This document shows positions 19,638-36,921 of a stretch of 38,571 bases of DNA, in pieces. Position numbers and translations under genes: made by a program. The stretch comes from a virus. Numbering within the stretch: the first letter of the stretch is position 1; each line of letters opens with the position of its first letter. The notes beneath the pieces are model-generated. The model worked only from the letters and a program-made list of their open reading frames with translations. It was not told the DNA's origin and searched no databases. Where the stretch lies: IMG/VR virus record IMGVR_UViG_3300033049_000176, positions 1-38,571 of that record; one strand, given 5' to 3'.

Positions 19638-20414
19638 CTATGCTGGTTTTTTGGGCGCAGTTTTTTTATCAGGCTTGGGCTTATCTGGCTGGGTCGCCGT
19701 CTCCAAATCCTTATGAGCCGTTTCCAGATCGGCCCTCAAACTGTCAATTTCATCATTTAATTTCGAAAGCTCGTCCGAAAACACAACTGCACCCGCTCGC
19801 TCGGCGTCAAGTTTAACTTTCAACTCGTCCCGTTCTTTGGCCATGGTTTCCAGCTCTGGGCTTTCTTTCCCGCCGCCTGCTTTCAGCTTTTTATTTTCAG
19901 CCGCTAACAAACCGATTTGATCGCGAAGCTCCTGCACCTGCTCACTGTCCTCGGCAAGCGGTTCATCTTCCGTGATCAATTTCCAACCCTGATCAGTCGC
20001 CACATATTGCACCACTTGCATTGGCCCAATCATGATTTCACCAACAGATTTTTTATGGCCAATTTTGGCGAAAACACCCTCGGCATGGGCTTGCTTGACT
20101 GTTTCAACCAAGACACCAATATCGCTTGGAATTTTATTATTTAACTTTTTGTTCTCGCAAACAAGAAGCCCCAAATTATCGGGATTACCGCTCTGGCCCG
20201 CAACAATAAGAGGATCACAATTATAAAGCCGGATACCGTCCAAGGGCAAAAACGCCCGAACAGCGATAATATCTCCGATACCCATTTTCTCGTCCGCGAT
20301 CAGATCAGAAAGGGCCTGGTCATCAAGCGGGTGATGCATTGGTTTAAACCCAGTGTTGCCAAAGAAAATAGCAGAAACACCCGCCGCCAATAGTTTAGTA
20401 TGAAAGTTTTGCAT
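19638..20414 (-). CDS. Head-region coiled-coil protein, unknown
   Basis: The 258-residue product lies between scaffold and capsid genes and has a GGAG ribosome site. Its first ~140 residues are a mixed alpha/beta domain I do not recognise (DEKMGIGDIIAVRAFLPLDG, then SVGEIMIGPMQVVQYVATDQGW). Residues about 150-235 form a clear coiled coil (EQVQELRDQIGLLAAENKKLK and LNDEIDSLRADLETAHKDLE). The end is a Lys/Pro tail (PDKPKPDKKTAPKKPA) that could bind DNA. It may be a head-inside or second scaffolding protein; the function is not decided by the sequence. Confidence 0.65.
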   Translation of the reverse strand: MQNFHTKLLAAGVSAIFFGNTGFKPMHHPLDDQALSDLIADEKMGIGDIIAVRAFLPLDGIRLYNCDPLIVAGQSGNPDNLGLLVCENKKLNNKIPSDIGVLVETVKQAHAEGVFAKIGHKKSVGEIMIGPMQVVQYVATDQGWKLITEDEPLAEDSEQVQELRDQIGLLAAENKKLKAGGGKESPELETMAKERDELKVKLDAERAGAVVFSDELSKLNDEIDSLRADLETAHKDLETATQPDKPKPDKKTAPKKPA

Positions 20415-20439
20415 GTTTATCTCCTGTTATGCAAATTAT

Positions 20440-20466
20440 CCCGGACGTAATTATTGCCCGTCCGGG
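20440..20466 (-). terminator. Hairpin attenuator overlapping the scaffold stop codon
   Basis: CCCGGACG (20466-20459 on the - strand) pairs perfectly with CGTCCGGG (20447-20440); the loop contains the scaffold TAA. It is followed by ATAATTTGC rather than a full T run, so partial termination or mRNA 3'-end protection is more likely than full termination. Confidence 0.45.
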
Positions 20467-21290
20467 TCGGCAAGCTTAATCAGTTCAAGGCGTCTTTTGA
20501 TTGCCCAGTCATGATTGGCGTCATCAGCAATATGTATAGCTTTCTCATACTGCTGCTCAAATTTCGCCAACTCCGCTTTCGCTTCACCCGGTGTCATTTC
20601 TCCGCTTTCCCGGCCCGTACCAGCCCCGGCACCCGGTTCGGAATATTCCTTGGCCAATTTCATAAACCCGCCGATCAACCGGGGATCATTACCCAGATCG
20701 GTATCATCGAGGGCATCGACAAATTCAGAACCGAAATATTTTCCCATAAAGGCTTTCCCGGCTTGCATGGCGGGTTCGAATTGCATCCCGTATTCTTTAC
20801 GCAACTTGTCCAACCCCTCGCTTTGAAACTGCTTGAGCTGCACATCTTCCGCCGCGCCGTTTTCCAAAACCATGCCGGCATAACCTTCATACATGGCAGT
20901 ACGTTGCGCCGTCGATAGCCCGGCATCATAGGCCATTTTGTTAAATGCCCCGACCTGATCTTCGCTTAATCCACCGACGCCCTCGATCTCCGGCAGATCA
21001 CCATATCCATCTGCACTTTCAGGCCGACCGCCCGCGTTGAAATATGCCTGAAAATCATCACTGGCAATATCGTCCCCGACCGGAGCTTTCAAAACTTGAC
21101 CTTTGTCAAGCCCGACCAGGCTTTGGGCATGACGGGTTGATGTAAAAACCGCGTCCAGATCAGCAAAGCCGTTGGCTTGTGCAAATTCTATGTTTTCGGG
21201 ACTGGCACCATCATACCAATTTGCACCGTCGCCGCCTGTACCGCCGCCCTCGCCACCGTCCGTGCCTGTGCCTGCATTTTCTTCGCTCAT
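20451..21290 (-). CDS. Capsid scaffolding protein
   Basis: The 279-residue product is very acidic and starts with a Gly/Glu-rich low-complexity segment (about 1-25). It continues with 'WYDGASPENIEFAQANGFADLDAVF', which I associate with scaffold-like proteins next to podovirus portals. The C-terminal third is a charged helix (PGEAKAELAKFEQQYEKAIH and onward), fitting a scaffold that binds capsid subunits through a helical tail and leaves the prohead before packaging. It lies between the Bbp19-like gene and the capsid region and has a good GGAG site. Confidence 0.75.
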   Translation of the reverse strand: MSEENAGTGTDGGEGGGTGGDGANWYDGASPENIEFAQANGFADLDAVFTSTRHAQSLVGLDKGQVLKAPVGDDIASDDFQAYFNAGGRPESADGYGDLPEIEGVGGLSEDQVGAFNKMAYDAGLSTAQRTAMYEGYAGMVLENGAAEDVQLKQFQSEGLDKLRKEYGMQFEPAMQAGKAFMGKYFGSEFVDALDDTDLGNDPRLIGGFMKLAKEYSEPGAGAGTGRESGEMTPGEAKAELAKFEQQYEKAIHIADDANHDWAIKRRLELIKLADPDGQ

Positions 21291-21291
21291 G

Positions 21292-21579
21292 TTAATCTCC
21301 TGTTTCTGGGGTTTGTGTTGAATTAGGTTTAAAAGCTGTCAGCGGATCAATGCCCGCTAAATTCATTAAATCTATCATGGCACTGCGCCGACCTTCGAAC
21401 ATGCCCCGTTCAAATGTGTCATAACCACTGCCGATTTTTTGGGTGATTTCACCGACGCCGCAAATCCGGGCATAGGCCAGCACCGCTTGCGCGGCTTGAG
21501 TGCCGGGGCCAAAGGCGGATTTGATTAAATCCACCTGCTCTTTGCTCGTCTTTGGGGTTGAAACTTTATGATGGTTCAT
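21292..21579 (-). CDS. Bbp19-like small head-region protein
   Basis: The 95-residue product has a basic polar start and a central pattern 'VLAYARICGVGEI...FERGMFEGRRSAMIDLMNLAGI'. This resembles the Bbp19 family of small podovirus proteins encoded between portal and scaffold. Its role is not established; position suggests head assembly. The start overlaps the portal stop (ATGA), so it is probably made in proportion to portal, and its TAA is next to the scaffold start. Confidence 0.7.
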   Translation of the reverse strand: MNHHKVSTPKTSKEQVDLIKSAFGPGTQAAQAVLAYARICGVGEITQKIGSGYDTFERGMFEGRRSAMIDLMNLAGIDPLTAFKPNSTQTPETGD

Positions 21580-23270
21580 TGTCCGGCCCCCGCAGTTTCA
21601 AGCCCCGCATTTTCAAGACTGGCCAGACCTTGCGCACTGTCGCGCAGGGCCGCCGCCGCCTGACCCGCCGCCTGGGCTTCCTCTTGCGCTTTGGCCGCTT
21701 CTTCGCGCGCTTGTCGGATATCGTCTACATCCTCGGGGGATCGGTTCAACGTCCGCTTCATCCCGTAATCACCAACGCCCTGGCGGTACATGGCATCACC
21801 GTCAATATTATCAATGACACTCGGATCGAGCTCGCCAATATTGCGGGCCAGTTCCAGGGAACGAATAATACTTTCCACATCCCCCTGATCCATGGCCGCC
21901 GACAAGGGCGAACGAAATTCAAAATCAAGCACATCGCCGCGCAAGCTTTCCGGCATGGGCGGAAATGCGCCGTATTCTTCCAATTTGCGAAATGTAATAT
22001 CAATAATCGGCCCGGCCAGATTATTCTCGGTATCCGCCGTAAAGCCGGACAAGGACTTAAACCGCAAATCTCGTTGGTCGAGAACCTCTGTCGCCGTGCG
22101 CTGGCCCGCGCCGCTCCTGTCCATCATCCAGTCAATATAAAACGCTTCACGAATATCATTCTTGGCCATATTCAACATAGCTTCGCCAGCCCGCAAATCA
22201 CCGCTCGGCGGCAAAGTCTGAAAAACTTCTCTGATATTGGAAAACCCAAGGGCTTCAAACGTCCCCATATTCACCGCCCCGGCCCGGCGATCATGATCCG
22301 GGAACGCCCCGTTGCTCATATCCCAGACGGGAGGGTCAATGGATTTTTCCGCCCCGGACGCAGTGGCGGCGTAAAGCCGGTTCATCCAATAAGCTTTTGG
22401 CGCGGCTTTATGGCCAGAACCAATACCGTACACGTCACCGGGACGGGTATGGAACCGCCCAACCGCAAAGGGCATATAATCATACCCGCTTTCTTCCAAA
22501 AATATTTTATCATCAAGGCCAATAACATATTCAAGAAACGGTTTATTAAGCGCCGGAGCACCGCGCCGCCCGCCCGTCCGTTGCCAAACGGCAGATAAAA
22601 ACGTCAGGCGCAATCCGGGCGACTTGGTGGCAATCTTGGCCAATTTCGGGTGTTGCCATTTGCGGAAAGCCGCACTGGCCGACAAACGAAACCGCCTAAA
22701 ACACATTTCCGGCTTGCCGTTATCGCCAAAGATGACCCAAAAATCCCAAAGCGGCGTTGATTTATATTGCGGCAATTGTCCCAAACCAGCCCCGGCCCAC
22801 ATATTACCCGTCCCAAACATAATCTGGTCAAACACCGTCTGCATCATGGCGGCGCGAAACGTCACATCCCCGGACCGAAAAACGCTGTGCATGGTATCGC
22901 GCACCGTATCAAGCCAGACATTTTCGGCATAACTGGTTTTATCGCGCCCCTGGAGACGCGGCACCGCAAATGGTTCACGGCCTCCGAACAAATATCCAAA
23001 CAACAAAGCCGCAGAACGCTCCCCCGCATCCACCGCGCTCATATCGTGCAAATAATGGGTGAGGTTACTACCCTCTGGCTTATACCCCGCGGCCAATTTA
23101 TCCGGCGCACACCAACGGGCAATATACCGCCAATCCGCTTCATAAGGCAAACGCTGGGATTTGGCTTCCTCCCAACGGCGCAAAGCCTGATCTATCTTGC
23201 CAATGTTTGGATCATTGTCATTTGTCATATCGCCGCCGGGGCGATCCATAGTCATAGCTTCCATGATCAT
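21576..23270 (-). CDS. Portal protein (head-to-tail connector)
   Basis: The 564-residue protein forms the dodecameric ring at one head vertex. Features of the podovirus connector family are visible: an N-terminal helical 'IDQALRRWEEAKSQRLPYEADWRYIARWCAPD', then 'HDMSAVDAGERSAALLFGYLFG', the central 'FGTGNMWAG', 'FAVGRFHTRPGDVYGIGSGHKAAPK', and 'RTATEVLDQRDLRFKSL' before the C-terminal region. The last ~60 residues are an Ala/Gln/Glu-rich helix suited to a barrel. Several ATG codons lie at the start; the first overlaps the stop of the preceding gene (ATGA). Confidence 0.9.
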   Translation of the reverse strand: MIMEAMTMDRPGGDMTNDNDPNIGKIDQALRRWEEAKSQRLPYEADWRYIARWCAPDKLAAGYKPEGSNLTHYLHDMSAVDAGERSAALLFGYLFGGREPFAVPRLQGRDKTSYAENVWLDTVRDTMHSVFRSGDVTFRAAMMQTVFDQIMFGTGNMWAGAGLGQLPQYKSTPLWDFWVIFGDNGKPEMCFRRFRLSASAAFRKWQHPKLAKIATKSPGLRLTFLSAVWQRTGGRRGAPALNKPFLEYVIGLDDKIFLEESGYDYMPFAVGRFHTRPGDVYGIGSGHKAAPKAYWMNRLYAATASGAEKSIDPPVWDMSNGAFPDHDRRAGAVNMGTFEALGFSNIREVFQTLPPSGDLRAGEAMLNMAKNDIREAFYIDWMMDRSGAGQRTATEVLDQRDLRFKSLSGFTADTENNLAGPIIDITFRKLEEYGAFPPMPESLRGDVLDFEFRSPLSAAMDQGDVESIIRSLELARNIGELDPSVIDNIDGDAMYRQGVGDYGMKRTLNRSPEDVDDIRQAREEAAKAQEEAQAAGQAAAALRDSAQGLASLENAGLETAGAGQ

Positions 23271-23491
23271 CTCCCAAAAATAGTTGGGCGGGTTGGCACT
23301 TTGGCGGCTCCACCGCCCGCAGACGGCAGGCCAGTACGCCTGGCCTGACTAAGGATCGTCGCCGTCCGCCCGCTTTTACCCCGCTTGCGCCGCTCCAGCT
23401 CCGCCGCCCGGCGCGATGCCTCATCGCCAGGACTTGGCGCGGTCTCAATATCCGGCGCTTCAACTTTCGGGGTTTTAAATAATCCTGACAT
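23267..23491 (-). CDS. Small basic pre-portal protein
   Basis: The 74-residue product begins 'MSGLFKTPKVEAPDIETAPSPGDE', continues with a very basic helix (RAAELERRKRGKSGR) and ends 'TATILSQARRTGL...PTIFGR'. Small proteins of this shape, with an N-terminal 'F..PK.P' motif and a C-terminal 'T.L.GG/LG' signature, sit directly before portal genes in many tailed phages; the function is not known. The stop overlaps the portal start. The gene lies nine bases after the large terminase. Confidence 0.7.
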   Translation of the reverse strand: MSGLFKTPKVEAPDIETAPSPGDEASRRAAELERRKRGKSGRTATILSQARRTGLPSAGGGAAKVPTRPTIFGR

Positions 23492-23500
23492 AATTTTCTC

Positions 23501-25045
23501 CTACAAATAAACTTTGGCTTTACGGCGGGGGTTATGCCCCATCTGGTCAACCGCCCGCATCAACGCCCGGTTGAGGGCGTCCGGCGCACCGTCAACCGCC
23601 AAACAAACATATTGCACCGCGTCATGTGGCTCGGTAAATTGCCGCCACTTCCCGGTCTTGTCGGGACGGTCGCTATAGCCAACATCAAGCTCGCTTCCAG
23701 TGCGCTTGAACCGATAACCGCCCAAAAACCCCTCGCGGGTCATGACGCATCTTTTGTTGATTTGAAAAAGCGGATAACCTTGATGCAATTTTGACAAACG
23801 CCAATTGACCGCATGATACCTCTTGGTCCAATTATTGCTCGGCGCAGGGATACAATACAGGCCAGACGCTTTCATAAATTCTGACATCCAGGTTTTTTTA
23901 TCGCCCATCTCTGTATGACCAGCGGCGGAGCTGGCTTGCCATAATGTGGGATCACCCACCCCGACCGCTGGACACCCGGCAAACTCACTGGCTAACCTGG
24001 CCTTAACACGAGCCCCAAATTCCGCTGCCGAATTTGTTGTCCCCGGCTCTGTCACATCTTCGGCAATAAACCGGATACGGTTAAGCTCCTTACGATCTGG
24101 CTGACCATATAAAGCGCCCGCCAATAAACCGCCGTCAATACCGACCACGACCAATTGTCCCGGTTCTGGCTTCATTTCCGCACTGACAGCATGTTGCTGA
24201 TCGTCGTAATTTGCATAGACAGGTTTCCCCGTCCGGTCATAGCCAGGTTTGTTTTCGATCATCCGGGCAATTTCTGCCGGATCATTCATCATCGCGGCCC
24301 GGTTCCGGTAAAAATCCGGGTGAATATTTGCGTGCAAATACTCGACATTCTCCGCATTGGGCGCAAACCCGGAAGGTTGAACAAACAACTGATCTTCGGA
24401 GCCTGGATTAAGGGCAAGGCGGCGGTAAAGCTCATGGGTTTCATTGGGCGCATTGAAATCAGCCCAAACAAATGTTTGCGGGAAATCACCCTCTTTGAAC
24501 CAATTACCCGGCGGCCAACGACCCAAACGCTGGGCCAGCTTACCGAGCGCACCTGCTGGCAAAAAAGTGGCCTCGTAAAGATAAACACAGGTTGGCTGTA
24601 AACCACCAATAAAACTGGCAAGAGACTGCCCGTCACCTATGGCGCGAAACTGCCAATGGATGTGCAATTTGCCATTGCCTTTGCTATCCGCAAAATAATG
24701 CTCAACATCGGCCTTGTTATTGGTGGCACCTTTAATTTTTCCGTACACATCTTCTGGCCACATATCCCTGAAAGACGGCAACAGCTTATCCCAAATATTG
24801 CCGTAAGTATCTGCGACCGCCACAATCTTGCAATGCTTGACACCATCATGGATTGCTATAGGCTGCCGCGCAGTAACTCTAACCCCTTTCATAAGCGAGG
24901 CTATTGTTTTGCCACCAGCCACCGGTCCCATAATTCCAGTAACCGATTTTTTCGAATGGATAAACGCCTGCGCCACAGGCCCAGGTGCGGTATACCCCGC
25001 AAACACTCCCATATCCCGCTCAACAGCATCAGGCGGTGGAGCCAT
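23501..25045 (-). CDS. Terminase large subunit
   Basis: I start at the ATG at 25045 (514 residues); a GTG at 25093 would add 16. The packaging ATPase shows a Walker A-like GPVAGGKT (residues 40-47), a Walker B-like strand 'TCVYLYEATF' with the catalytic Glu, and a C-terminal RNase H-fold nuclease with acidic positions in 'VVVGIDGG', 'VGVGDPT' and the final 'EPHDAVQYVCLAV'. This is the T7-like podovirus type. It packages DNA into the prohead through the portal. A 300-base gap with G-tracts and a hairpin separates it from the small subunit gene. Confidence 0.9.
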   Translation of the reverse strand: MAPPPDAVERDMGVFAGYTAPGPVAQAFIHSKKSVTGIMGPVAGGKTIASLMKGVRVTARQPIAIHDGVKHCKIVAVADTYGNIWDKLLPSFRDMWPEDVYGKIKGATNNKADVEHYFADSKGNGKLHIHWQFRAIGDGQSLASFIGGLQPTCVYLYEATFLPAGALGKLAQRLGRWPPGNWFKEGDFPQTFVWADFNAPNETHELYRRLALNPGSEDQLFVQPSGFAPNAENVEYLHANIHPDFYRNRAAMMNDPAEIARMIENKPGYDRTGKPVYANYDDQQHAVSAEMKPEPGQLVVVGIDGGLLAGALYGQPDRKELNRIRFIAEDVTEPGTTNSAAEFGARVKARLASEFAGCPAVGVGDPTLWQASSAAGHTEMGDKKTWMSEFMKASGLYCIPAPSNNWTKRYHAVNWRLSKLHQGYPLFQINKRCVMTREGFLGGYRFKRTGSELDVGYSDRPDKTGKWRQFTEPHDAVQYVCLAVDGAPDALNRALMRAVDQMGHNPRRKAKVYL

Positions 25046-25096
25046 GACGGTTCCGCCTAAAGGTAATTGGCTTTGGCCAAGCTGATTTAACACGCC

Positions 25097-25271
25097 GCCA
25101 CCCCCCTACCCCCAATCCATAAGTAAAAATTATCGCGGGCCGCACATCCAAAGGTAATGCCTCCAAATTGAAAAACGTCAGAATTTGGGTTGCCGCCTGC
25201 GGTTGCTCCCTTACCCCGGCAGGGGCCGGGTCTGTCTTGGGGGTGGGGGGGTGCGAAAGGGGCCGGGGGGG
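25097..25271. other. G-tract cluster between terminase genes, quadruplex-forming potential
   Basis: The + strand has G5-N1-G7-N7-G4-N2-G7 at about 25239-25271, a textbook four-tract quadruplex motif. About 130 bases away, at 25097-25113, G-tracts lie on the other strand (GGGGG, GGGGGG, GG). No convincing gene is present in 25046-25345. The place between small and large terminase genes is a common site for pac or cos signals. Confidence 0.55.
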
Positions 25272-25286
25272 TGCTGACGTGCGCGA

Positions 25287-25315
25287 AACCCAACGGATGC
25301 CCCATCCGTTGGGTT
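25287..25315. repeat. Perfect 12-bp hairpin in the terminase intergenic region
   Basis: AACCCAACGGAT (25287-25298) pairs perfectly with ATCCGTTGGGTT (25304-25315) around a 5-base loop. Neither strand has a T run after it, so it is not a standard terminator. It could be a terminase recognition site, an mRNA processing site or a protein-binding dyad. Confidence 0.7.
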
Positions 25316-25345
25316 CTTGTGAAAAGTTTCAATGTTATCAAACTT

Positions 25346-25894
25346 TTACTCATCATGCCCCACCTCATCTTGTGCGACGGCTTGGGCGGTGGCCGCGTAA
25401 CCTACTGATTTCATTGCATCTTTTATTTGCAGGTCAAAATCCGTATCACTATCAGCATCTTCCGCGAACAAACCCAAATCAATATTGACCGGCTGGAAGT
25501 TGATACCAGCGATCACAACCGCACTGGGTTGCGCCTGATGTGTATATTTCATGCTTAATGCCAAAGCTTTCAGCCAGAGATCAGCAGCATCCTTGGACTT
25601 TAACGTCCATTCGCGGCGCAATTGCTTCGGTGTCATGGCCACGATGTCCAGCAGAGTAAACAACTGATCGCGGTAATTAGCCTTGGCCACCCGCACCACA
25701 TCGCTGGTCATACGGTTCTTTGAGCCCCTTGGCCGCCCAGGCCCGCGCTTCCCTGGCGGTTCAGCATCAAATTGCGACGAAAACAAATCCGCCAACAAAT
25801 CAGCATCCGGATCAACACTCACCAAAGCCCCAATATCACCGCCAGCACCCTTAACCGTACCGCCAGCCCCAACTTCCTCAAAATCCACAGGCAT
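25346..25894 (-). CDS. Terminase small subunit (probable)
   Basis: The ATG at 25894 has a GGGGGAGAG ribosome site; the 182-residue product is the first gene of the structural operon. After an acidic N-terminal region it carries a basic AT-hook-like motif 'GKRGPGRPRGSKN' (about 48-62), then a helical domain (SDVVRVAKANYRDQLFTLLDIVAMTP), and an acidic C-terminal third. The 'GPGRPRGSKN' start followed by a helical region directly upstream of the large terminase is common for small subunits in this type of phage. Its role would be to bind the packaging site. Confidence 0.7.
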   Translation of the reverse strand: MPVDFEEVGAGGTVKGAGGDIGALVSVDPDADLLADLFSSQFDAEPPGKRGPGRPRGSKNRMTSDVVRVAKANYRDQLFTLLDIVAMTPKQLRREWTLKSKDAADLWLKALALSMKYTHQAQPSAVVIAGINFQPVNIDLGLFAEDADSDTDFDLQIKDAMKSVGYAATAQAVAQDEVGHDE

Positions 25895-25986
25895 CAACTC
25901 TCCCCCCGCACTTCAGAGTAAAGCGACACCGAATTTTCAATTTTCGAATATTTATGCAATATTTAATTCCTGCTGGCAAAGCAGGC

Positions 25987-26046
25987 ACCATAGAGCAAGC
26001 CGGAACTGGGCCGTCAGTTAACCAACATTGGTACGACGGGAACCAC
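25987..26046 (-). promoter_or_regulatory. Late promoter element B upstream of the small terminase
   Basis: On the - strand the dyad ACCAA-TG-TTGGT (26032-26021) lies 28 bases upstream of a TATGGT -10 box (25992-25987). The same core, the upstream GGTTCCC, the downstream CCGG and the same 28-base distance occur at element A (5602-5652). The transcript would have a leader of about 86 bases before the small terminase ATG. Confidence 0.55.
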
Positions 26047-26057
26047 AACAATTAAAA

Positions 26058-26325
26058 CCTTACACGCATTACAGGTTCCTGACACAATTCCTTACATGTT
26101 AAACTATTGAAATCATTACACATATATCTATATTAGAGATGTGTAAGGTATGTAAGGAATTGCATCGCGCACACATGAGAAAAAGGGGGCAAATCCCCTC
26201 TTTTTTCTCGCATGTGCGAGTAAATCCTAAAATTCCTGACACAAGCCAAAAATCAATAAAATCATTAATAAAATCAATGACTTAACTCAATATTTCATGT
26301 AAGGAAAGGTGTCAGGTATGTAAGG
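26058..26325. repeat. Iteron-like repeats (nine TGTMAGG), candidate replication origin
   Basis: TGT(A/C)AGG occurs on the + strand starting at 26142, 26151, 26298, 26310 and 26319, and on the - strand at 26058-26064, 26078-26084, 26090-26096 and 26235-26241. Two larger units appear: a 20-bp direct repeat with one mismatch (26142-26161 and 26310-26329), and a 19-bp inverted repeat with two mismatches (26078-26096 and 26298-26316). An AT-rich stretch at 26250-26297 could be an unwinding element. Confidence 0.65.
26168..26218. repeat. 51-base near-palindromic hairpin inside the iteron cluster
   Basis: Left arm CGCACACATGAGAAAAAGGGG and right arm CCCCTCTTTTTTCTCGCATGTGCG pair with few mismatches around a short loop. 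With its T/A runs it could serve as a terminator on the + strand, but its place among the iterons also fits a priming or initiation structure. Confidence 0.7.
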
Positions 26326-26547
26326 AATTATTTAAAAACCCTTATATTTCAAGGGTTTAAGTGTAATGAAAATCCCGCACTGTAAGAAAATAAACTGGTC
26401 TATTTTCGCTCAATCTCATTATAGCTGTCATTGGGTGGGGGTAAAGGAAAAATAATTTATTTTCAATTCTTATCGCTTTTCAATGAGGGTTGGGGATATT
26501 TGAGCGCACCAAATAACAATGCTATGCATTTTATTGCAAATACTCCC

Positions 26548-26576
26548 TTGACATTGCTAAAAGCTTTCTTTATAGC
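26548..26576 (+). promoter_or_regulatory. Strong sigma70-type promoter of the rightward small-gene operon
   Basis: TTGACA (26548-26553), a 17-base spacer and TATAGC (26571-26576) are followed by a short leader with AAGGAG about eight bases before the ATG at 26612. It is the best sigma70 match I see outside the repressor region. Confidence 0.75.
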
Positions 26577-26611
26577 ACTCTTACCAAGTCAACACAAAAG
26601 GAGATTACCAA

Positions 26612-26941
26612 ATGACTAGTAATAGCACAGCAACAATTATATTAAATCAATTAGGCGGTCGCAAGTTCATTATAATGACTGGAGCGTCTAAATTAATGGG
26701 AGAAACAAACGGTTTATCTTTTAAATTACCCCGCGCATTTGCAAAAAATAATGTAAACCACGTATCAATAAAATTAAATCAGATAGACTTGTACGACATC
26801 ACATATTCCCGGATTTGGGGCGGAAAATACAAAGTAATCGCCAAAAGCGAAAATATATATAATGATATGTTACAGGTAGACTTTACCGATAATACCGGGC
26901 TGGATTGCACTTTTGGAGAGATATATCATGCTTCAATCTGA
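26612..26941 (+). CDS. Conserved phage protein of unknown function
   Basis: The 109-residue product has the pattern 'ILNQLGGRKFIIMTGA...GLSFKLPRAFAKNNVNHVSIKLNQIDLYDITYSRIWGGKYKVIAKSENIY', which I recall from many phages as a small beta-rich protein encoded in early regions, never assigned a role. It has a strong promoter and ribosome site, so it is likely made early and in quantity. The next gene starts 14 bases before its end. Confidence 0.7.
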   Translation: MTSNSTATIILNQLGGRKFIIMTGASKLMGETNGLSFKLPRAFAKNNVNHVSIKLNQIDLYDITYSRIWGGKYKVIAKSENIYNDMLQVDFTDNTGLDCTFGEIYHASI

Positions 26942-27146
26942 AACCATCAACATTGGCCATGAAACCGTCGAGCAAATCTTGCTCGGCGGCCCCAAACCAA
27001 TAGTCACGCCCAGCACTCAAACCGCCAGGGACGCCCACACCATCAAAACCACATCCGCAAAGCCCCTCCGATCGAGCCAAGCCCAAAAGCCCTGCACAAT
27101 CGGACTATGGGACGACACGGCAAGGGCGCAACGAGAACTATTTTGA
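26928..27146 (+). CDS. Small hypothetical protein
   Basis: The ATG at 26928 is preceded by GGAGAG. The 72-residue product has a short N-terminal helix (ETVEQILLGGPKPIV) and a polar, Thr/Lys/Ala-rich remainder without a recognisable fold. It overlaps the end of the previous gene in another frame, which supports co-translation. No family recognised; it could be a small regulator or host-takeover protein. Confidence 0.5.
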   Translation: MLQSETINIGHETVEQILLGGPKPIVTPSTQTARDAHTIKTTSAKPLRSSQAQKPCTIGLWDDTARAQRELF

Positions 27147-27235
27147 GATAACCGGGCGGGGAGATTACCAAGTCACCACCGCCCGGACGCACCCGTCAAA
27201 GACAGACGCGCAAACCCAATTTATAAGGCAAAACC

Positions 27236-27532
27236 ATGAACAACAAGCCCAAAAAACCAAACCACAAATCCTATACGGCCATGACGGCCACCGACTACGG
27301 CAATATGATCACCACCTGCTTACCCGGCCACAACAAATCCCAAATCTGCAAGATTTTAGACATTACCGCCGCCACCCACGCCAGATGGACGCGGTACGGG
27401 ATCACCGGCAATTACAATCCCACCAAAGCCGACAAAAATAAAGCCCAAGTGCTAAACCGCGTGCAGAGCCACGCAAACAACCTATACAATCAAAGCAGGA
27501 GCATCGAAAGCTGGCTGGCCAGTCAAGCATAA
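27236..27532 (+). CDS. Small HTH-like protein, related to the 123-residue early protein
   Basis: The 98-residue product is basic. Its middle 'GHNKSQICKILDITAATHARWTRYG' reads as a helix-turn-helix. The same pattern 'GHSKDWMLARLAITAATYIKWT' occurs in the first gene of the leftward early operon (36451-36822), so the two look like distant paralogues. It is the last gene of the rightward operon and converges on the methyltransferase end. As a small basic DNA-binding protein it is a candidate for the late-gene activator or an origin-binding factor; that is inference only. Confidence 0.55.
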   Translation: MNNKPKKPNHKSYTAMTATDYGNMITTCLPGHNKSQICKILDITAATHARWTRYGITGNYNPTKADKNKAQVLNRVQSHANNLYNQSRSIESWLASQA

Positions 27533-27562
27533 AGGTCAGTTTAACATATGACGTTAATACTA

Positions 27563-27571
27563 TTATCCACA
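27563..27571 (+). promoter_or_regulatory. Perfect DnaA-box match
   Basis: TTATCCACA, the consensus host DnaA-binding site, lies in the short non-coding gap between the converging rightward operon and the methyltransferase remnant. It is a single copy in the gap; another copy occurs inside a coding region near 14893. It is about 1.2 kb from the iteron cluster. Confidence 0.4.
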
Positions 27572-27669
27572 AGCCCGGTCAGCCTTGACCATATCCCATG
27601 GCACACCCCGCCTCACGTCCAGCCAAGCACCAACACCCTGCCCGTCAACTTTTAGTGCGACGAGAAACC

Positions 27670-27810
27670 TCATTTATTTGCGTTTTCGCGCCCGCCCAGC
27701 CCGTTTTCAGGCCGACCGGCCTCAAAATCAAGAATAGCATATCCAATAATTTCCACAACTCGCGGATCCATTGCATTGCCGAGCACCCCTATTCTGTCCA
27801 CCCAGTTGGG
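27670..27810 (-). CDS. C5 cytosine methyltransferase, C-terminal part in the -1 frame
   Basis: This frame carries 'DRIGVLGNAMDPRVVEIIGYAI', the motif X end of cytosine-5 DNA methyltransferases, which is absent from the main frame. It can be joined to the upstream part by a -1 shift at TTTCCCA (27807-27813 on the + strand, written as its reverse complement), whose zero-frame codons are TTC CCA. The joined product would be about 270 residues. Otherwise the gene is broken by a one-base frameshift and this part is not made. Confidence 0.6.
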   Translation of the reverse strand, partial: PNWVDRIGVLGNAMDPRVVEIIGYAILDFEAGRPENGLGGRENANK

Positions 27811-28479
27811 AAATGCATGAACGCTTCGCCTAATTCGGGCGTAGGATTTATCTCGTTGCAAGCCAGACATTCTGCCCAACTCATCCCGCCGAGATTTCCC
27901 TGTTTGTTTAATTTTCTGCGTGAGTGCACCAGCGTAGGCTTTGCGGCGGACAGCATGTCCACTTTGGTAAAGTCGGCCAATAGCCAAAGCCGATCCCTCT
28001 GATGAACGGCACCAAGGGCGGACGACGGTATGCAATGCCATTCCGCATCATACCCGACCTCGGCCAAGGCTCCAAGTACAGGGCCCATTCCTCGATTAAG
28101 CAACGCTGCCACATTCTCCAACAAAAGTCTTGGCTGTCCCACCACGCAAAGGGTTCGAATGATGTGCCAGAACAATCCACTACGTTTTCCGGCAAGTCCG
28201 GCACCCTTGCCCGCGAATGATATGTCTTGACACGGGAAACCCGCCGTAACCAAGTCCACGGCTTGGCGATATTTAAAACTGGTGATATCGTCATAAATTT
28301 TTACATCCGGCCAGTGCTTTTTTAATATTTTTTGCGGATAATCCGCTTTTTCACAAAACGCGACGGTTTCAAACCCGCCCGTATTTTCAAGCCCAAAACT
28401 TGCGCCGCCAATACCCGCAAACAGGTCCAGGACCTTAATTTTTTCCCGAACGCAATTCCCATTTTCAGGCCGACCGGCC
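27700..28479. repeat. 22-bp direct repeats flanking the cytosine methyltransferase gene
   Basis: 27700-27721 and 28458-28479 differ at one base and contain the partial palindrome GGCCGACCGGCC. They are 758 bases apart, bracket the methyltransferase frames, and on the - strand both code for AGRPENG in different frames. They may mark the edges of a transferred cassette or be binding sites for the enzyme. Confidence 0.75.
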
Positions 28480-28481
28480 AC
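27789..28481 (-). CDS. C5 cytosine DNA methyltransferase, main part (frameshifted 3' end)
   Basis: The family motifs are clear and in order: VLDLFAGIGG (motif I, cofactor binding), GFPCQDIS (motif IV with the catalytic Cys), LLLENV (motif VI), and QRDRLW (motif VIII). The region after 'LVHSRRKLNKQG' is a short target-recognition part. The frame stops after 'HFPTGWTE', before motif X, which lies in the -1 frame. The start is uncertain; I use the GTG at 28481, next to the adenine methyltransferase stop. The enzyme would modify cytosine in phage DNA and protect it from restriction. A 22-bp repeat containing GGCC sites is present at both ends. Confidence 0.75.
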   Translation of the reverse strand: MAGRPENGNCVREKIKVLDLFAGIGGASFGLENTGGFETVAFCEKADYPQKILKKHWPDVKIYDDITSFKYRQAVDLVTAGFPCQDISFAGKGAGLAGKRSGLFWHIIRTLCVVGQPRLLLENVAALLNRGMGPVLGALAEVGYDAEWHCIPSSALGAVHQRDRLWLLADFTKVDMLSAAKPTLVHSRRKLNKQGNLGGMSWAECLACNEINPTPELGEAFMHFPTGWTE

Positions 28482-28483
28482 AC

Positions 28484-29155
28484 TTACACCATAGCCAAAC
28501 AACAAGCCGCAAACACCGCGTGGCGCTCTCCTGGCGGCATATCCGCCAACATCCGCGCCCAGCGGGCCGCCTTGCGCTTGATCCGCCGCCGGCAATCATG
28601 ATCAGCACCGACCATATCGACCGCAAATGGTTCCCTGGCCGGGTAATTCATATATAGAACTTCGCGCCTCGGCCCGCCCCGTGTCGGAGCCGTAAATTCC
28701 CAGCGCCGCCAATCCGCCAACGCTTTGTCGTAAAACGGGTGCGGGTAATGGGACAGGATCACATCACAAGGCAAAGCCGTCACCATTGCAAGTAGCCGCA
28801 TATGCTCCCCGTGCTCAAAATCATATTTATACCGCTTATCAGATGTCCGCGTCTCCAAATGATAAGGCGCGTCAATATAGACCAACACACACAAATCATT
28901 TGCCAGATATTTTTTAACCAAATCCGGCAGAAGTAAAAACGCATCCCCGTGGATAAGTTCTTCTCCGGATGCCCGGTCATAGGCGGCCACAAGATCCGCA
29001 TCAATATCAATCCCGACATGCACCGCCGCAGGCGGCTTACGCAACATCACCTGCCCCGAGCCCAAAAACGGCTCAATATAAACATCATGGGGCGGCATAG
29101 AGCCAACAATCCGTTGCCAAACCCCATTGCCACCTTTTGAACCGAAATAACTCAT
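28484..29155 (-). CDS. DNA adenine methyltransferase-like protein (D12 class)
   Basis: The 223-residue product starts 'MSYFGSKGG' and has 'DVYIEPFLGSGQVML', the cofactor-binding motif I of D12-class N6-adenine methyltransferases, followed by 'GIDIDADLV' and the catalytic motif region 'VLVYIDAPY'. The usual DPPY is DAPY here; a D-x-P-Y variant can be active, but this is not certain. The C-terminal part includes 'VILSHYPHPFYD' and a basic helical end. It probably modifies phage DNA against host restriction. It overlaps the following 63-residue gene by four bases and is directly followed by the cytosine methyltransferase. Confidence 0.8.
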   Translation of the reverse strand: MSYFGSKGGNGVWQRIVGSMPPHDVYIEPFLGSGQVMLRKPPAAVHVGIDIDADLVAAYDRASGEELIHGDAFLLLPDLVKKYLANDLCVLVYIDAPYHLETRTSDKRYKYDFEHGEHMRLLAMVTALPCDVILSHYPHPFYDKALADWRRWEFTAPTRGGPRREVLYMNYPAREPFAVDMVGADHDCRRRIKRKAARWARMLADMPPGERHAVFAACCLAMV

Positions 29156-29343
29156 GGTGTGGTAACAATACCGTGACTATAAGCATCTGCTAAAGCCAAC
29201 ACTTCCGATGCAAACCACCTGCCAACTATATCACGATTACTACCGATAGATAATTGCCAAAACCAACGCCCAGATAAACATTCTTGAAGCACAAAAAATG
29301 GCTCATCTTCAATATTCAACGCTTTCCAATTAGCTTTTACCAT
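29152..29343 (-). CDS. Small hypothetical protein
   Basis: The 63-residue product contains several aromatic residues (WKALNIEDEPFFVLQE, then RWFWQLSIGS) and reads as a small beta-rich protein. No family recognised. The ATG overlaps the end of the ASCH-like gene upstream, and the stop overlaps the adenine methyltransferase start, so it belongs to the leftward early operon. Confidence 0.6.
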   Translation of the reverse strand: MVKANWKALNIEDEPFFVLQECLSGRWFWQLSIGSNRDIVGRWFASEVLALADAYSHGIVTTP

Positions 29344-29687
29344 CTAATCAAAACCCCCTTAAATGGCAGGCCATAGGTTTTATCGAAAAAAGAGAGCATA
29401 TCTGCCCAATTTTCAAATCCGTCAGCAATTGCAAAATGATTGAGTGTGACCGCCCGATTATCTAAATTTAGTCGCGGGCTATAAATCCAGCGCTTATTAA
29501 GGTAACGACGCATTATACCATAATCACCAATAGCTATAGTCGCTACACTCAAACAAACCGGATCCACATCAACCAACTTGCGACAAGCCTTTGTCCGCAT
29601 CCCGGTATAAAGCTGGAGCTTTACACCCGCCCCGATCAGACGCCCGAATTGTTTGCCGCTTCGTCCCGTCCGCCACTTTATCAACAA
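29337..29687 (-). CDS. ASCH-like phage protein (probable)
   Basis: The 116-residue product has the pattern 'GAGVKLQLYTGMRTKACRKLVDVDPVCLSVATI', followed by 'FAIADGFENWADMLSFFDKTYGLPFKGVLIRW' at its end. I recall this from ASCH-domain-like phage proteins (RNA- or nucleotide-binding fold), in which a conserved Gly-Phe-x-x-x-x-x-Met/Phe helix and a terminal 'FxGxLIRW' strand are typical. Its function in phages is not known. It lies ten bases after the PcfJ-like gene. Confidence 0.6.
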   Translation of the reverse strand: MLIKWRTGRSGKQFGRLIGAGVKLQLYTGMRTKACRKLVDVDPVCLSVATIAIGDYGIMRRYLNKRWIYSPRLNLDNRAVTLNHFAIADGFENWADMLSFFDKTYGLPFKGVLIRW

Positions 29688-29698
29688 ATTTACTAAAG

Positions 29699-30823
29699 TT
29701 AATTGCTACCATTATGTTCGCCTTTCAAAGTCTGTTTAAGTGGGGCAAATTTTTGCTTTTTACTCATCAGAACATCATAAAACGCACCGGTCTTGACAGT
29801 ATTCCTAAGCCATGACGGCGCGGACGCATTGAATTTTCCCCGGATTTGGGTTGGTGCCCATTGCCGCTCCATTTCCACCCGCTGCCGATACATTTCCAAT
29901 GTAAATCCATGTCCCGCCCCAATTTCCGCGCCGTCTTTATCCAATTCCACAGTTTCCAAATGCAAATATATAGCCGCCCCCGCCGCCCATTTTTTATGAT
30001 ACTTCATATGATCTTGGCCAACACAATGCTGCATAATTTTGCTTTCCAAAGCCAATTGCCGCCGGGTCAACAAAACCTTAGCATCAATCCGGTATTTACT
30101 TTTGGTAATAACACTAAATACCGGACAAATCCCCTCCGGGACAATCTCGACCTCATCGTCATAACCGGCAAGATCAGCCTGGGCCGCATCCTCATGCCAT
30201 TTATCCATTGCCCGTTTTGCCTGGGCCAATGTCCATTGTTTTGGCCAAGGCAAACCCTCGCCCATCCGATGCCGGGCATAATCCGATAAATCTTGAGCAT
30301 CGGAATTGTTTAAATATATGGGAAGATTGACCAACCACCGGGCGAATATTGTACAATCAGGAACACAAGTAAAAGCCGTTTCGATATTGACCGTAAGTCT
30401 TTGGTTGTGAGCAAGATCGCCTTTACGAAGCCCGATATCAGTAATTTTTAAGAATGGATGTTGTGACAGATTGGAGCTAAATAAAAATACGGGGAGAGAA
30501 AAAGTATTTCTAACTGATAAATCCATAAATCGCCATTGCCACGGCAAACCCAAATTTTTAAAAATCTGGCGTAGGCCGGATTTTTTTGAAACCGATTGTA
30601 AAAAAACAGCTGTATGGGCAGAATTATTATCCGTTTCTAAGCTCTGAAAAACATAACACCGCAAAATCTGCGCCGCGAATAAACAATCGCGAGCATGAGG
30701 ATATTGCTGGCAAAAATACTCTAATTTCGAGTTTTGTTTCGGATCCATGCGCCATTCATTGGCCTCGGAAGCCTGTCGTAGTGTTTTAGTAAGATGCATC
30801 ACACCTGGCTCATATGTAAACAT
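29699..30823 (-). CDS. PcfJ-like protein
   Basis: The 374-residue product starts at the ATG overlapping the helicase stop (ATGA). The N-terminal two thirds are mixed helical with no recognised motif. From about residue 255 comes 'RRQLALESKIMQHCVGQDHMKYHKKW', followed by 'AAIYLHLET' and 'GFTLEMYRQRVEMERQWAPTQI', which fits the PcfJ-like domain first seen on conjugative plasmids: LxxEgxxMxHCVGxY, then a strand, then TLEI...QxxGxxN. The usual Tyr after HCVG is replaced. The role of PcfJ proteins is not settled. Here it is co-translated with the replicative helicase, suggesting a link to DNA replication. Confidence 0.7.
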   Translation of the reverse strand: MFTYEPGVMHLTKTLRQASEANEWRMDPKQNSKLEYFCQQYPHARDCLFAAQILRCYVFQSLETDNNSAHTAVFLQSVSKKSGLRQIFKNLGLPWQWRFMDLSVRNTFSLPVFLFSSNLSQHPFLKITDIGLRKGDLAHNQRLTVNIETAFTCVPDCTIFARWLVNLPIYLNNSDAQDLSDYARHRMGEGLPWPKQWTLAQAKRAMDKWHEDAAQADLAGYDDEVEIVPEGICPVFSVITKSKYRIDAKVLLTRRQLALESKIMQHCVGQDHMKYHKKWAAGAAIYLHLETVELDKDGAEIGAGHGFTLEMYRQRVEMERQWAPTQIRGKFNASAPSWLRNTVKTGAFYDVLMSKKQKFAPLKQTLKGEHNGSN

Positions 30824-32664
30824 CAATCCTGCCCCTCAAACTCGATAAACGCCGAAACCCGGATCATCGTCCCCCAGGAAACTTTACCGCCGATCCGCGC
30901 ACTGCCCTGTTTACTGCGCACTTCGCTTGGTGCCCGTTTTAAGGCCGCGCTCCATACCCCCCGGTCCGCCGCGCCGCTCTTCCAGGCCGAGCGGGCAAAA
31001 ACCTCGCGCAAAGCCGCATGTTTGGACGGGATGAACAAAAAATTGGTTTTCCGGGACAATATCCCGTTTGGCTTGACAATACCCAGCCCGATTTCCGCCA
31101 ATTGGTCACGAATACCCGCAAATTCAAGCCGGTCAGCCTCTGGCCCAGGTTGGTAATAGCGCACCAATAAAGCCCGCACCGACCGATAGGTTTTATTGCT
31201 CCACAAACCAATCGGGGTTTCGATTAAATGATCTAGACATCCGCGCCAATTATCAACATTTTGCGCCTTTTCACGCTCAGACATAGATTGTAAGTGCGAG
31301 ACCCAGTCTTTAACATCCCCGGCGTCCGGCAGACCATCTCGGGTCAAAATAAACCACATGCCCGCCAATGTCCCGTACTGATCCCCAAACCGGCTATCAA
31401 CTTGCAAGCCGTTAATTAAACCGTTCCTGAAAATGGTGATGGCTTTGTTTAAATTATCCCAATTGTCCATAATCCGCCGCATCATTTTACGGCCATTTTC
31501 CGCCAGAGCAGCAACATTAAATTCCGGGGCTTGACTGCCTTGGGCAAATGGCTGCAAATCTAATATGGCAATTCGCGACCGGGCCGTTGGCTTTAAACTG
31601 GGCAAATTCACCGCTGACAGCATAAAACATGACCGCAATATAAATTCCACATGATTATGCTCGGCACCACCCCGCAGGATTTTACTACCCGAAGATGCCG
31701 TGATTAACAGATTGATCACCGCCTGTACGGCCCGATCGTCTTCACTGCCCTCGGCTTCGTCGTACAAAACGGCAATGGTATCGTGTTTAAGACTTTGGTA
31801 AATCCCCGCCGCCGTCGTATCGGAAGTCCGGACAATATTAGCCCCCATCACGTGCTCGGTCAGTTCGTGCAAGGTGGATTTCCCGGTTGATTTATCACCG
31901 GTTACGGCAATATGTGGCCGCCAGCCCAGCGCCCCGCCGAACATGGCACACCCGATCCAGGCCACATAAAGCCGCGCATCAAGTGCGCCCCGGTCCCAGC
32001 TCCAGGTCAATATATATTCATAAATCTGCCGTGCCGCACCGTACATATCCGCCGGTTCAGCATTGCCCCACGGTTTTGGCCCAGGCTCCAAAGCCGGATA
32101 CAAAAACCGGCCAATCTCGCCGGGTTTTTCTGGCAAATCTGTATAACCATTCACATAAATAGCATTGCCCCCATGAAACACCATTTGGCCGTATTCATTC
32201 AAACTGGCCCCGCGCCCGCGAAACCTGTCCTTAGGCGACCAGGCACCTTTATAACTACACGCATCGATTAAGCACCGCCGCGCCGCTTCGCTGGCAAAAC
32301 GCCCGGTGTTAATTTCGCCGTTTTTATATCGGGCCGGCCAGGCCCAAAACATATATTTTATCCGGCCCCCAAACATAAATTCCAAATCGGATTGCCCGGC
32401 AGACTTGGACGTCATAGGTACCAGTGTGCCGCGCGGTGACAATAAATACAGTATATTATTATCAAAACCCAGCGCCGTGACTGGACATTCCGGCGGCAAT
32501 CCCAATTCGTTCGGCTCCCATTTTCCGGGCGGAATAGCTTCGCCGTCTATAATCCGGTTATCACCTGGCAAGCTATCTGCAAACCGGGCCGAGACTATAT
32601 TTTCAGCCTCCTCAAGCGCTTGATTGATAACGTCTTTTTTTTGTTGTTCCGTACCTTTGCTCAT
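30823..32664 (-). CDS. Replicative helicase/ATPase
   Basis: The 613-residue protein has a Walker A motif GDKSTGKST (256-264) and a Walker B-like IAVLYDEAEG (about 297-306), followed by 'ILRGG' and 'SCFMLSAVNLPSLKPTARSRIAILDL', resembling the sensor and arginine-finger parts of phage/plasmid primase-helicases. The first ~240 residues are a separate domain. It directly follows the TOPRIM primase with a 4-base overlap, so the two together do the work of a fused primase-helicase: unwinding and priming at the phage origin. No DNA polymerase is present; the host polymerase must be used. Confidence 0.8.
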   Translation of the reverse strand: MSKGTEQQKKDVINQALEEAENIVSARFADSLPGDNRIIDGEAIPPGKWEPNELGLPPECPVTALGFDNNILYLLSPRGTLVPMTSKSAGQSDLEFMFGGRIKYMFWAWPARYKNGEINTGRFASEAARRCLIDACSYKGAWSPKDRFRGRGASLNEYGQMVFHGGNAIYVNGYTDLPEKPGEIGRFLYPALEPGPKPWGNAEPADMYGAARQIYEYILTWSWDRGALDARLYVAWIGCAMFGGALGWRPHIAVTGDKSTGKSTLHELTEHVMGANIVRTSDTTAAGIYQSLKHDTIAVLYDEAEGSEDDRAVQAVINLLITASSGSKILRGGAEHNHVEFILRSCFMLSAVNLPSLKPTARSRIAILDLQPFAQGSQAPEFNVAALAENGRKMMRRIMDNWDNLNKAITIFRNGLINGLQVDSRFGDQYGTLAGMWFILTRDGLPDAGDVKDWVSHLQSMSEREKAQNVDNWRGCLDHLIETPIGLWSNKTYRSVRALLVRYYQPGPEADRLEFAGIRDQLAEIGLGIVKPNGILSRKTNFLFIPSKHAALREVFARSAWKSGAADRGVWSAALKRAPSEVRSKQGSARIGGKVSWGTMIRVSAFIEFEGQD

Positions 32665-33815
32665 ACGACCAAATCCTTAAACCAGTCGTTTAAATCCTTG
32701 ACACCCGGCGGCGGGCGCAGTGAGTTTAACTGCCGACCATTGGCCAAACTTGCAAAATGAGCGCATATATTGTCCCATGTTTGTGCCGCTGCTTCACCGG
32801 GATCATTATCCCCTAATAAAATCAACCGGCGGGCATTCTCCGGCCAAGACTGGCTGATAAAATTCCCGCAAGCATAAGTAACATGCACCCGGTAATTGGG
32901 CCAAATCTGTACGGCTTGGAAACCGTCTTCCAACCCCTCCAACAAAACCAGGGTATCACGCACCCCCTTTTTGATCGCCTGCTTAACCGATAGACCTGAT
33001 TTACCGCGCCATAAACGAATGGCTGAACCCGTAGGCGACCCCCGCACTTTTTTCACACTCGGCACATCCGCCTTATACCCGTCTTTCGTTAAATATGTCC
33101 GGTGCAAAGCCGTGATTTTCCCGGCGTCATTTGTCATAGCCGCCGCAATCAATGGATGGGTGCTATAATTTTCAAGACCGCCGCCCCGGTAATACCGCCC
33201 GTCCGGGTGAAACCGCACCGCGCCGCAAGCGGGCTTATAACTCGCTGATTTAATAATCCCGGCCAGATCAATATCCCGCCGCGATAAATACCGACCAACC
33301 GGCCCGTCCAACAAATCGCTTCGGTCCGGCATAAGCTTTGCCGAACCGCCGAGCCATTGCCCCATCAGTTTTTTAGAACCGATCGCCCCGGTGCTAGACT
33401 GATACCCAGAACGGGGCTTAGTCGGCGCATCCCGCCGCTTGGGTGCATGTTTGGGCAAATCCTTATAATCTATTTGCGCCAGTCCGAAATACCTGGCCGC
33501 CCAGGCTAGGGCGCGGGGGTAACCCTCCCGGCTCGATGCATCAAAACCGAGTGCCAGCCCGATCAGCGAGATCATATCACCGTGGTTGGGATAGGCATTG
33601 GACGAAAAATCATGCCAGCCAATGTTCTCGCCCTTGGTAAATATCACAAATGACCCGGGATTGGCATCACTCCGGCTTGGATTGCGCGGTTTATAATGCC
33701 CTTGGCCTTTATCCTCTTGTGCATGGGCATCCGGGATCAATTCTTGGGCCACGGCCAAGGCATTGACCTCAAGCCGGTGCTTGATCTCGTCGTCTGTCCA
33801 TTCATAATTTGCCAT
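32661..33815 (-). CDS. TOPRIM primase
   Basis: The 384-residue protein ends in a TOPRIM domain: 'TLVLLEGLEDG' (288-298, catalytic Glu), 'LILLGDNDPGE' (331-341, the Asp-x-Asp metal pair), and 'PPPGVKDLNDWF' near the end. A 'ALHRTYLTKDG' segment at about 236-246 is typical of phage DUF7146-type primases. The N-terminal ~90 residues read like a CHC2 zinc-binding primase domain (GHYKPRNPSRSDANPGSFVIF...GDMISLIGLALGFD), but the zinc-ligand cysteines are missing, so it is a degenerate version. It makes primers for phage replication with the adjoining helicase. Confidence 0.85.
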   Translation of the reverse strand: MANYEWTDDEIKHRLEVNALAVAQELIPDAHAQEDKGQGHYKPRNPSRSDANPGSFVIFTKGENIGWHDFSSNAYPNHGDMISLIGLALGFDASSREGYPRALAWAARYFGLAQIDYKDLPKHAPKRRDAPTKPRSGYQSSTGAIGSKKLMGQWLGGSAKLMPDRSDLLDGPVGRYLSRRDIDLAGIIKSASYKPACGAVRFHPDGRYYRGGGLENYSTHPLIAAAMTNDAGKITALHRTYLTKDGYKADVPSVKKVRGSPTGSAIRLWRGKSGLSVKQAIKKGVRDTLVLLEGLEDGFQAVQIWPNYRVHVTYACGNFISQSWPENARRLILLGDNDPGEAAAQTWDNICAHFASLANGRQLNSLRPPPGVKDLNDWFKDLVV

Positions 33816-36902: not shown

Positions 36903-36921
36903 TGTCAACCACTAAATGGAA
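36903..36921 (-). promoter_or_regulatory. Operator copy 1 and leftward early promoter -35 box
   Basis: The 19-base sequence is the exact reverse complement of 37637-37655. On the - strand it ends in TTGACA (36908-36903), directed at the leftward early operon. The -10 region 16-18 bases on is poor. Another TTGACA (36878-36883) faces it on the + strand, for possible use by the repressor gene. Confidence 0.55.

Follow-up and report, generated by a model that had tools for sequence, protein, structure and literature searches.

The window analyzed here, i.e., the whole stretch of DNA under study, is the 38,571-bp virus record IMGVR_UViG_3300033049_000176. The portal, the capsid and the BcepC6B-type terminase encoded in it mark it, judging from sequence, as a podovirus-like phage; with portal, capsid and terminase genes of its own, it is not a PICI satellite. 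The leftward late genes start at 25897 with a probable terminase small subunit (25346 to 25897, minus strand), which adjoins the terminase large subunit (TerL; 23501 to 25093, minus strand), assigned to the BcepC6B type by a sequence match. The product of 25346 to 25897 gave no family match and is named from its position and its look. Between this gene and a rightward ORF at 26612 is a gap of 714 bp, in which an array of short repeats sits. To the right of the gap follow four small rightward ORFs (26612 to 28220, plus strand), some of which may not be genes, and a region (28484 to 36822) in which the majority of early genes run leftward, the AAA+ helicase P0003 (30823 to 32664, minus strand) and the DUF7146/Toprim primase P0004 (32661 to 33815, minus strand) among them. 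The four rightward ORFs and further small leftward genes separate the array from the helicase gene. A repressor-like gene with an S24-like end is found at 36916.

Several of the other genes can be described briefly. Relatives of the first rightward ORF (P0001, phrog_9437) occur in jumbo phages and in KVP40-type Vibrio phages, 27236 to 27532 gave a weak antitoxin-like match below the family cut-off (TIGR02293, E 0.007), 35200 to 35604 gave a partial match to DUF5131, and several proteins of the early operon (29699 to 30826 and 33815 to 36822) had no Pfam or PHROG match. An earlier note on this DNA had remarked that no integrase was in view, and in agreement with this none was matched among the ORFs scanned, which were part of the window's ORFs; the DnaA-like protein that it had also invoked found no match in the same set. 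The GC skew across the window shows no switch at the site of the array.

A two-strand iteron array in the intergenic gap

Nine exact copies of TGTMAGG lie within 26058-26325, four on the minus strand (26058, 26078, 26090 and 26235) and five on the plus strand (26142, 26151, 26298, 26310 and 26319), in a region with a GC content of 0.354 (26001-26500). Nine TGT(A/C)AGG copies in both orientations is what the earlier note had claimed, and the density is far above chance: the whole window holds 14 copies, 9 of them inside 268 bp, compared with a mean of 5.44 copies in whole-window shuffles, and 60 Markov samples of the window never had more than two in any 300 bp. The exact word CCTTACA reaches six copies per 300 bp, the maximum of all heptamers in the window, with the next two words at five each; in 710-bp Markov samples of the region, an exact-word count of 5 occurred in 4 of 500 and a count of 6 in none. 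When one mismatch was allowed, 14 sites were found in 25980-26456, whereas 500 Markov samples had 2.06 on average and 7 at most.

The copies are grouped into blocks. The left outer block (26058 to 26096, minus strand) consists of TGTAAGG at 26058, a degenerate TGTAATG at 26067, TGTCAGG at 26078 and TGTAAGG at 26090, with spacings of 9, 11 and 12 bp, the degenerate copy dividing the 20-bp spacing of the exact copies 26058/26078 into 9+11. It is followed by an AT-rich spacer (26097 to 26141, 78% AT), a candidate melting element with a further degenerate copy at 26114 (minus strand), and by the left inner pair (26142 to 26157, plus strand), spaced at 9 bp. The centre (26158 to 26225) is made up of alternating purine-pyrimidine pieces interrupted by a 51-nt hairpin (26168-26218). 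Beyond it lie the right inner block (26226 to 26241, minus strand), with the exact TGTCAGG at 26235 and, identified by eye, a two-mismatch TTTTAGG 9 bp apart at 26226, then a second AT-rich spacer (26242 to 26297, 79% AT), and finally the right outer block (26298 to 26325, plus strand), i.e., TGTAAGG, TGTCAGG and TGTAAGG at spacings of 12 and 9 bp. With the hairpin in the middle, this order amounts to an imperfect dyad, a layout that is absent from the earlier note. The distance between inner and outer blocks is 52 bp on the left and 63 bp on the right, and the difference of 11 bp is about one helical turn.

Other elements described previously could be located precisely. Among the exact copies, the proposed spacings of 9 bp (26142/26151 and 26310/26319) and 12 bp (26078/26090 and 26298/26310) are each seen twice. 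The direct and inverted repeats, given before as 20 bp and 19 bp, are real, and were found to extend over 26 nt (26136-26161 and 26304-26329, 88%) and 21 nt (26078-26098 and 26296-26316, 90%), respectively. The 51-base hairpin is present (-16.4 kcal/mol, z -5.2). The AT-rich stretch holds good for the two spacers, one inside each half of the array, but not for the centre with the hairpin, which is itself 54% AT.

Predicted fold of the helicase P0003

P0003 is the proposed initiator, and P0004 is likely to be its partner; in one relative (L243), a Toprim and a helicase match fall within one protein. The AlphaFold model of P0003 has a mean pLDDT of 89.6 and a pTM of 0.81. The best Foldseek match of this model was the SaPI5 primase-helicase (E 1.3e-8, TM 0.33 by model length), and a second aligner ranked SCCmec Cch first (Z 17.7, 441 residues, rmsd 6.6), with MCM helicases just under Cch at Z 15.0-16.6. 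The AAA+ core of P0003 is predicted by the model to have the Cch / SaPI Rep fold, in comparisons where TM-scores are low and MCM helicases score nearly as high. The P0003 sequence itself matched no Pfam family (E<=0.001), DUF927 included, and no NCBIfam family (E<=0.01). Since it matches neither DUF927 nor a related Pfam family, we describe P0003 as a protein that may work like Cch and SaPI Rep and not as a DUF927 member. The elements and hosts in which P0003 is found differ from those of Cch and SaPI5 Rep, its best predicted-fold matches.

Arrays lie downstream of related helicases

Relatives of P0003 were collected with a three-sequence helicase alignment, which provided the best 80 of 219 viral loci and 44 genome loci; the named genomes are mostly Alphaproteobacteria, and the relatives include prophages of Nitratireductor indicus C115 (L269) and Oricola cellulosilytica JCM 19534 (L271). 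A motif-blind scan for heptamer arrays on two strands covered 123 of these 124 loci (L311, a short match, was left out) and the window, with 41 Markov-made loci as the control. At a cut-off of >8.5, hand-set above the best Markov locus (7.7), 85 arrays were detected. Four were removed. L188 comes from the contig of L002/L003, and its matched proteins are 100% identical to those of the window; L261 has a downstream 24-bp tandem repeat, and in L259 and L270 the hit is upstream and consists of a 6-bp tandem repeat and a GC-only word, respectively. The remaining 81 array loci comprise 54 viral loci, 26 genomic loci and the window, some viral/genomic pairs being the same prophage, and a threshold of 90% helicase identity reduced them to 64 representatives. 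The window array scored 12.5 when read on one strand and 10.0 on the other, and the next best cluster in the window scored 8.0.

Among the 76 helicase loci that extend 4 kb or more to each side, the array was downstream of the helicase in 54, upstream in 1 and absent in 21; with 4 kb required downstream, 72 of 100 loci had an array there and 28 had none, an association that is partly by design, as the loci were selected by helicase. The median distance from helicase stop to array was 191 bp (80 loci). The window array is 4498 bp downstream of P0003 and not immediately 3' of the helicase gene. The nearest relative of the window by helicase distance (L268) has the helicase, about 5 kb, the array and then a rightward ORF running off the locus. 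L219 is the sole case among the 81 with its array upstream of the helicase.

The window array lies between divergent genes, its outer blocks facing outward, one to each operon, and could be read as an operator array at which a regulator switches the leftward late genes and the rightward genes from 26612, with the central hairpin as terminator. Promoter-like sites in 25700-26750 number 6, compared with 2.7 in shuffles, and there is 1 terminator-like hairpin compared with 0.9; the hairpin at 26168-26218 is terminator-like on the plus strand and, as judged by eye, on the minus strand. Against the operator stands the position of the array in relatives, which is mostly close behind the helicase stop (within 450 bp in 58 of 80 loci) whatever gene comes next, as well as the resemblance of its distances to those of P4 crr/ori. 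We consider this explanation improbable, and repeats serving only transcription of the flanking operons, the outcome that the earlier note had named as its refutation, fit the comparative data less well than an origin does. Autoregulation alongside origin function is possible. Lying beside the late operon and 4.5 kb away from the helicase, the window array may also have a late-promoter role.

Terminase genes at the array loci

The window array is also directly upstream of the terminase genes. Of the 81 array loci, 44 carry a TerL of the window type, and the array precedes it in 43 (L219 left out). Such an arrangement would be expected of a packaging site (pac or cos), with the small terminase subunit binding to repeats that immediately precede its own gene. 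Covariation between motif and protein was analyzed as well. Motif distance correlated with helicase distance (rho 0.24, p 0.005; 199 permutations, 63 loci), and in the same 31 loci it tracked TerL slightly better (rho 0.386) than the whole helicase (rho 0.335), the partial rho being 0.11 for the helicase given TerL and 0.23 for TerL given the helicase. Covariation with the helicase C-terminus was rejected as a proof of binding, the C-terminal part doing no better than the rest and TerL slightly better. Since the motif follows TerL slightly better than the helicase, common descent may explain the covariation, and no one protein is marked out by it as the one that binds the motif.

However, unrelated terminases occur at array loci, i.e., the window type, Terminase_3 (L243) and GpA (L247, L265, L300 and L309), and that three terminase types follow arrays argues against a packaging site. 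Ten large downstream proteins at other array loci included five terminases (four GpA and one Terminase_3), and the repeats were not tied to terminase type in the manner of a lambda-type cos or pac. In L219 the helicase gene and TerL abut each other, with the array 3.9 kb away and apart from the terminase. Two Pseudomonas phages of the PrimPol type, Lodos and PG1, have their array around the stop of the primase gene and the hypothetical gene behind it; holin genes come next, then terS, at a distance from the array of 2.4 kb in Lodos and 1.7 kb in PG1. When loci were selected by TerL, an array was found in 5/5 with a P0003-type helicase and in 11/31 without one (one-sided 0.012), a test weakened by duplicates in both groups, with four independent phages among the five. 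This set kept the 36 of 80 loci with 2.5 kb upstream and left out 44 shorter ones; L344 is on the same contig as L225, and the pairs L322/L323 and L376/L381 are apparent duplicates. One locus (L337) has an array without a P0003-type helicase, beside a VapE helicase. A packaging site is, on this evidence, extremely improbable.

The spacing plan is kept while the word drifts

The heptamer varies among relatives and includes GGTAACG, TGTAACG, GGTTCTG, TGGAACC, CCTAACG, GTCGTGG and CCTTACA. Across the 64 representatives, same-strand spacings were 8-9 bp in 191 cases and 11-12 bp in 119, and opposite-strand gaps peaked at 41 bp (17 cases) and 43 bp (18 cases), a further group being seen at 20-23 bp. 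With the window left out, 230 gaps of 15-85 bp were periodic at about 11.5 bp, not at the 10.5 bp of B-DNA, with a power of 22.9 compared with a jittered maximum of 11.1 (n=500). Adjacent opposed inner pairs were present in 47 of 64 representatives and a strict four-block dyad in 16 of 64; the numbers refer to loci and should not be read as independent events. The right inner block of the window contains a single exact copy, which leaves the window outside the strict four-block class; it shows the 9 and 12 bp spacings, but its gaps are 52 and 63 bp. These results suggest stronger conservation of the spacing plan than of the recognition word, and this is the novel part of the analysis.

TGTAAGG was rejected as a universal phage motif, as other words also form arrays, TGTAAGG being the commoner of the two tested. 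In a scan of viral contigs, three tandem copies of TGTAAGG were found in 88 stretches and of the reversed word in 46; two-strand arrays with at least four copies made up 44 of 87 of the former (one window duplicate left out) and 6 of 46 of the latter. Many of these 44 arrays fall into the same phage groups. In 36 contig sets, no window protein was in any of the 30 most widely shared protein families. The TGTAAGG look-alike arrays occur in phages with PrimPol-DUF5906, VapE, AAA_25 and CHC2-Toprim primase-helicases. The presence of unrelated helicases beside TGTAAGG prompted the idea of a host-factor site, which was dropped because phages with related helicases carry other words.

Arrays of other words were seen in addition. 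TGTGTTG/GTTGGGT arrays with a spacing plan close to that of the window lie beside the PrimPol gene in the Pseudomonas phages Lodos, LPPA56, pAN and SC_9 (L097, L098, L099 and L101). The control contigs L143, L146, L151, L160, L167 and L186 have nine to ten AATGTTC copies on both strands, and control contig L164 has a twelve-copy two-strand CTTAGAA array at 5928-6216.

The window and Lodos, a Pseudomonas phage of the PrimPol type, could be compared copy by copy. The copies stand at 0/20/32, 84/93, 177 and 240/252/261 in the window and at 0/20/31, 83/92, 196/205 and 270/281/290 in Lodos (an extra Lodos copy at 247 is omitted), so that each half agrees within 1-2 bp and the Lodos centre is longer by about 20 bp. 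The right outer and right inner blocks are on opposite strands in the window and on the same strand in Lodos. Tentatively, the origin may be coded by its geometry, i.e., phages and satellites with unrelated initiators would use a similar spacing plan while the 7-bp word drifts freely. This plan might be common to the Cch/SaPI Rep-like P0003, PrimPol-DUF5906 helicases, VapE helicases and P4 alpha, and might place copies 8-9 bp apart inside the inner blocks and 11-12 bp apart inside the outer ones, with about 43 bp, or a further one to two turns, separating the blocks, all around an alternating purine-pyrimidine core. The strand difference between the window and Lodos lowers the probability of such a geometric code, and we hold the odds to be somewhat against it.

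Centre, hairpin and spacers

In the 40 representatives in which a centre could be delimited, alternating purine-pyrimidine runs had a mean of 19.7, compared with 6.1 in controls, with p<=0.05 in 38 of 40 loci. The longest such run in the window centre is 12 bases (p 0.0075). The spacers between inner and outer blocks of relatives were more AT-rich than their own locus in 69 of 72 cases. A conserved central hairpin was rejected: the mean z was -0.64 for the 40 centres and -0.43 for flanks, with z below -2 in 10% and 12.5%, respectively. The window, with a centre z of -5.8 in this comparison, is an exception among its relatives. The literature search returned no paper on alternating purine sequences together with iterons at a phage replication origin.

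Comparison with known replication systems

Phage P4 was used as a control, in which the same detector ranked the annotated crr first (13.1) and the annotated ori second (11.0). The third hit (8.9) corresponded to the annotated attP arm repeats, and for this reason a score >8.5 alone is not proof of an origin. The annotated type-1 repeats of P4 have distances of 9, 43, 18, 14 and 10, 11, 22, 43, 10 bp. The likeness to P4 crr/ori lies in type-1 repeats on both strands and in distances of 9-11, 22 and 43 bp; unlike the window, P4 also has distances of 14 and 18 bp, its crr consists of two direct 120-bp repeats, and its ori is separate. P4 alpha and the P0003 family matched over only 35 columns at the P-loop (probability 13), without full-length homology.

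Centromeres, too, typically have short tandem sites about one helical turn apart. P4 crr, the cis required region, has similar distances and lies apart from the annotated origin. A partition or copy-control site, i.e., a centromere-like or crr-like accessory and not the start itself, would be consistent with both points. However, no par genes were found among the ORFs scanned (part of the window's ORFs), and the window has no second TGTMAGG cluster, whereas P4 has two. We judge this possibility to be very improbable.

In the portions of the sources available, PICI/SaPI origins are described as two iteron sets around an AT-rich region, immediately 3' of rep (PMC6092414 for EcCICFT073; Ubeda et al. 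in PMC7581432), with terS sometimes encoded in the same direction (PMC6092414; PMC7581432). The C-terminal domain of SaPI Rep reportedly binds iterons directly downstream of its own gene, and that of Cch2 is described as binding the direct repeats in a putative origin that lies downstream of the Cch2 gene (PMC7581432, in part); no origin of Cch itself was found in the portions of the literature available. Going by these descriptions, the arrays analyzed here differ from PICI/SaPI origins in belonging to full-size phage genomes, in their two-spacing blocks on both strands and in their alternating purine-pyrimidine centre, and the window array differs in being 4.5 kb from the rep-like gene. For pRN1, mutational analysis placed the origin directly 3' of the primase-helicase gene, and for the Bordetella phage BIP-1, in which they found no origin-like iterons, Berkner et al. 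proposed a stem-loop 3' of the replication gene as origin (PMC4234260, in part). Both pRN1 and BPP-1/BIP-1 differ from the window in that they have stem-loops without iterons; in agreement with Berkner et al., the detector gave no array >8.5 either for BPP-1 (20000-34000) or for BcepC6B, of which the two 3-kb ends were joined and scanned. In the titles and abstract openings covered by a literature search, subscription papers being mostly outside reach, no such origins were found in full-size phages of this kind.

Proposed origin and its implications

Based on the sequence features established above, i.e., the array, its layout, its recurrence beside P0003-type helicases with changing words and the predicted helicase fold, we propose that 26058-26325 is a putative phage replication origin, with a probability of roughly 85%. 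By analogy, it would work like SaPI/PICI and P4 origins, in a full-size phage and with small genes between array and helicase. The iteron origin of the earlier note is retained with the position relative to the helicase, the recurring geometry and the P4 control in its favour; the hairpin is given up as a general part, the centres of the family being no more hairpin-prone than their flanks. In the proposed mechanism, P0003 would bind the TGTMAGG iterons, probably via its C-terminal domain, and each half of the dyad, i.e., outer block, AT-rich spacer and inner block, would be the loading site of one hexamer. Melting would then take place in the AT-rich spacers or in the centre, the Toprim primase P0004 would prime, and two forks would leave in what would be bidirectional replication.

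This origin would provide podovirus-like phages and prophages, which by the named genomes are mostly of Alphaproteobacteria and for which the literature search found no studied origin, with a site that can be tested, and would extend the SaPI/PICI-like type of origin to full-size phages. The spacing plan could make origins easier to find in phage genomes that lack annotation, and it constrains how a self-loading hexameric helicase assembles on DNA. If the origin is indeed coded by its geometry, two self-loading hexamers in head-to-head placement would have this plan as their footprint, and phage origins could be located without knowing the word.
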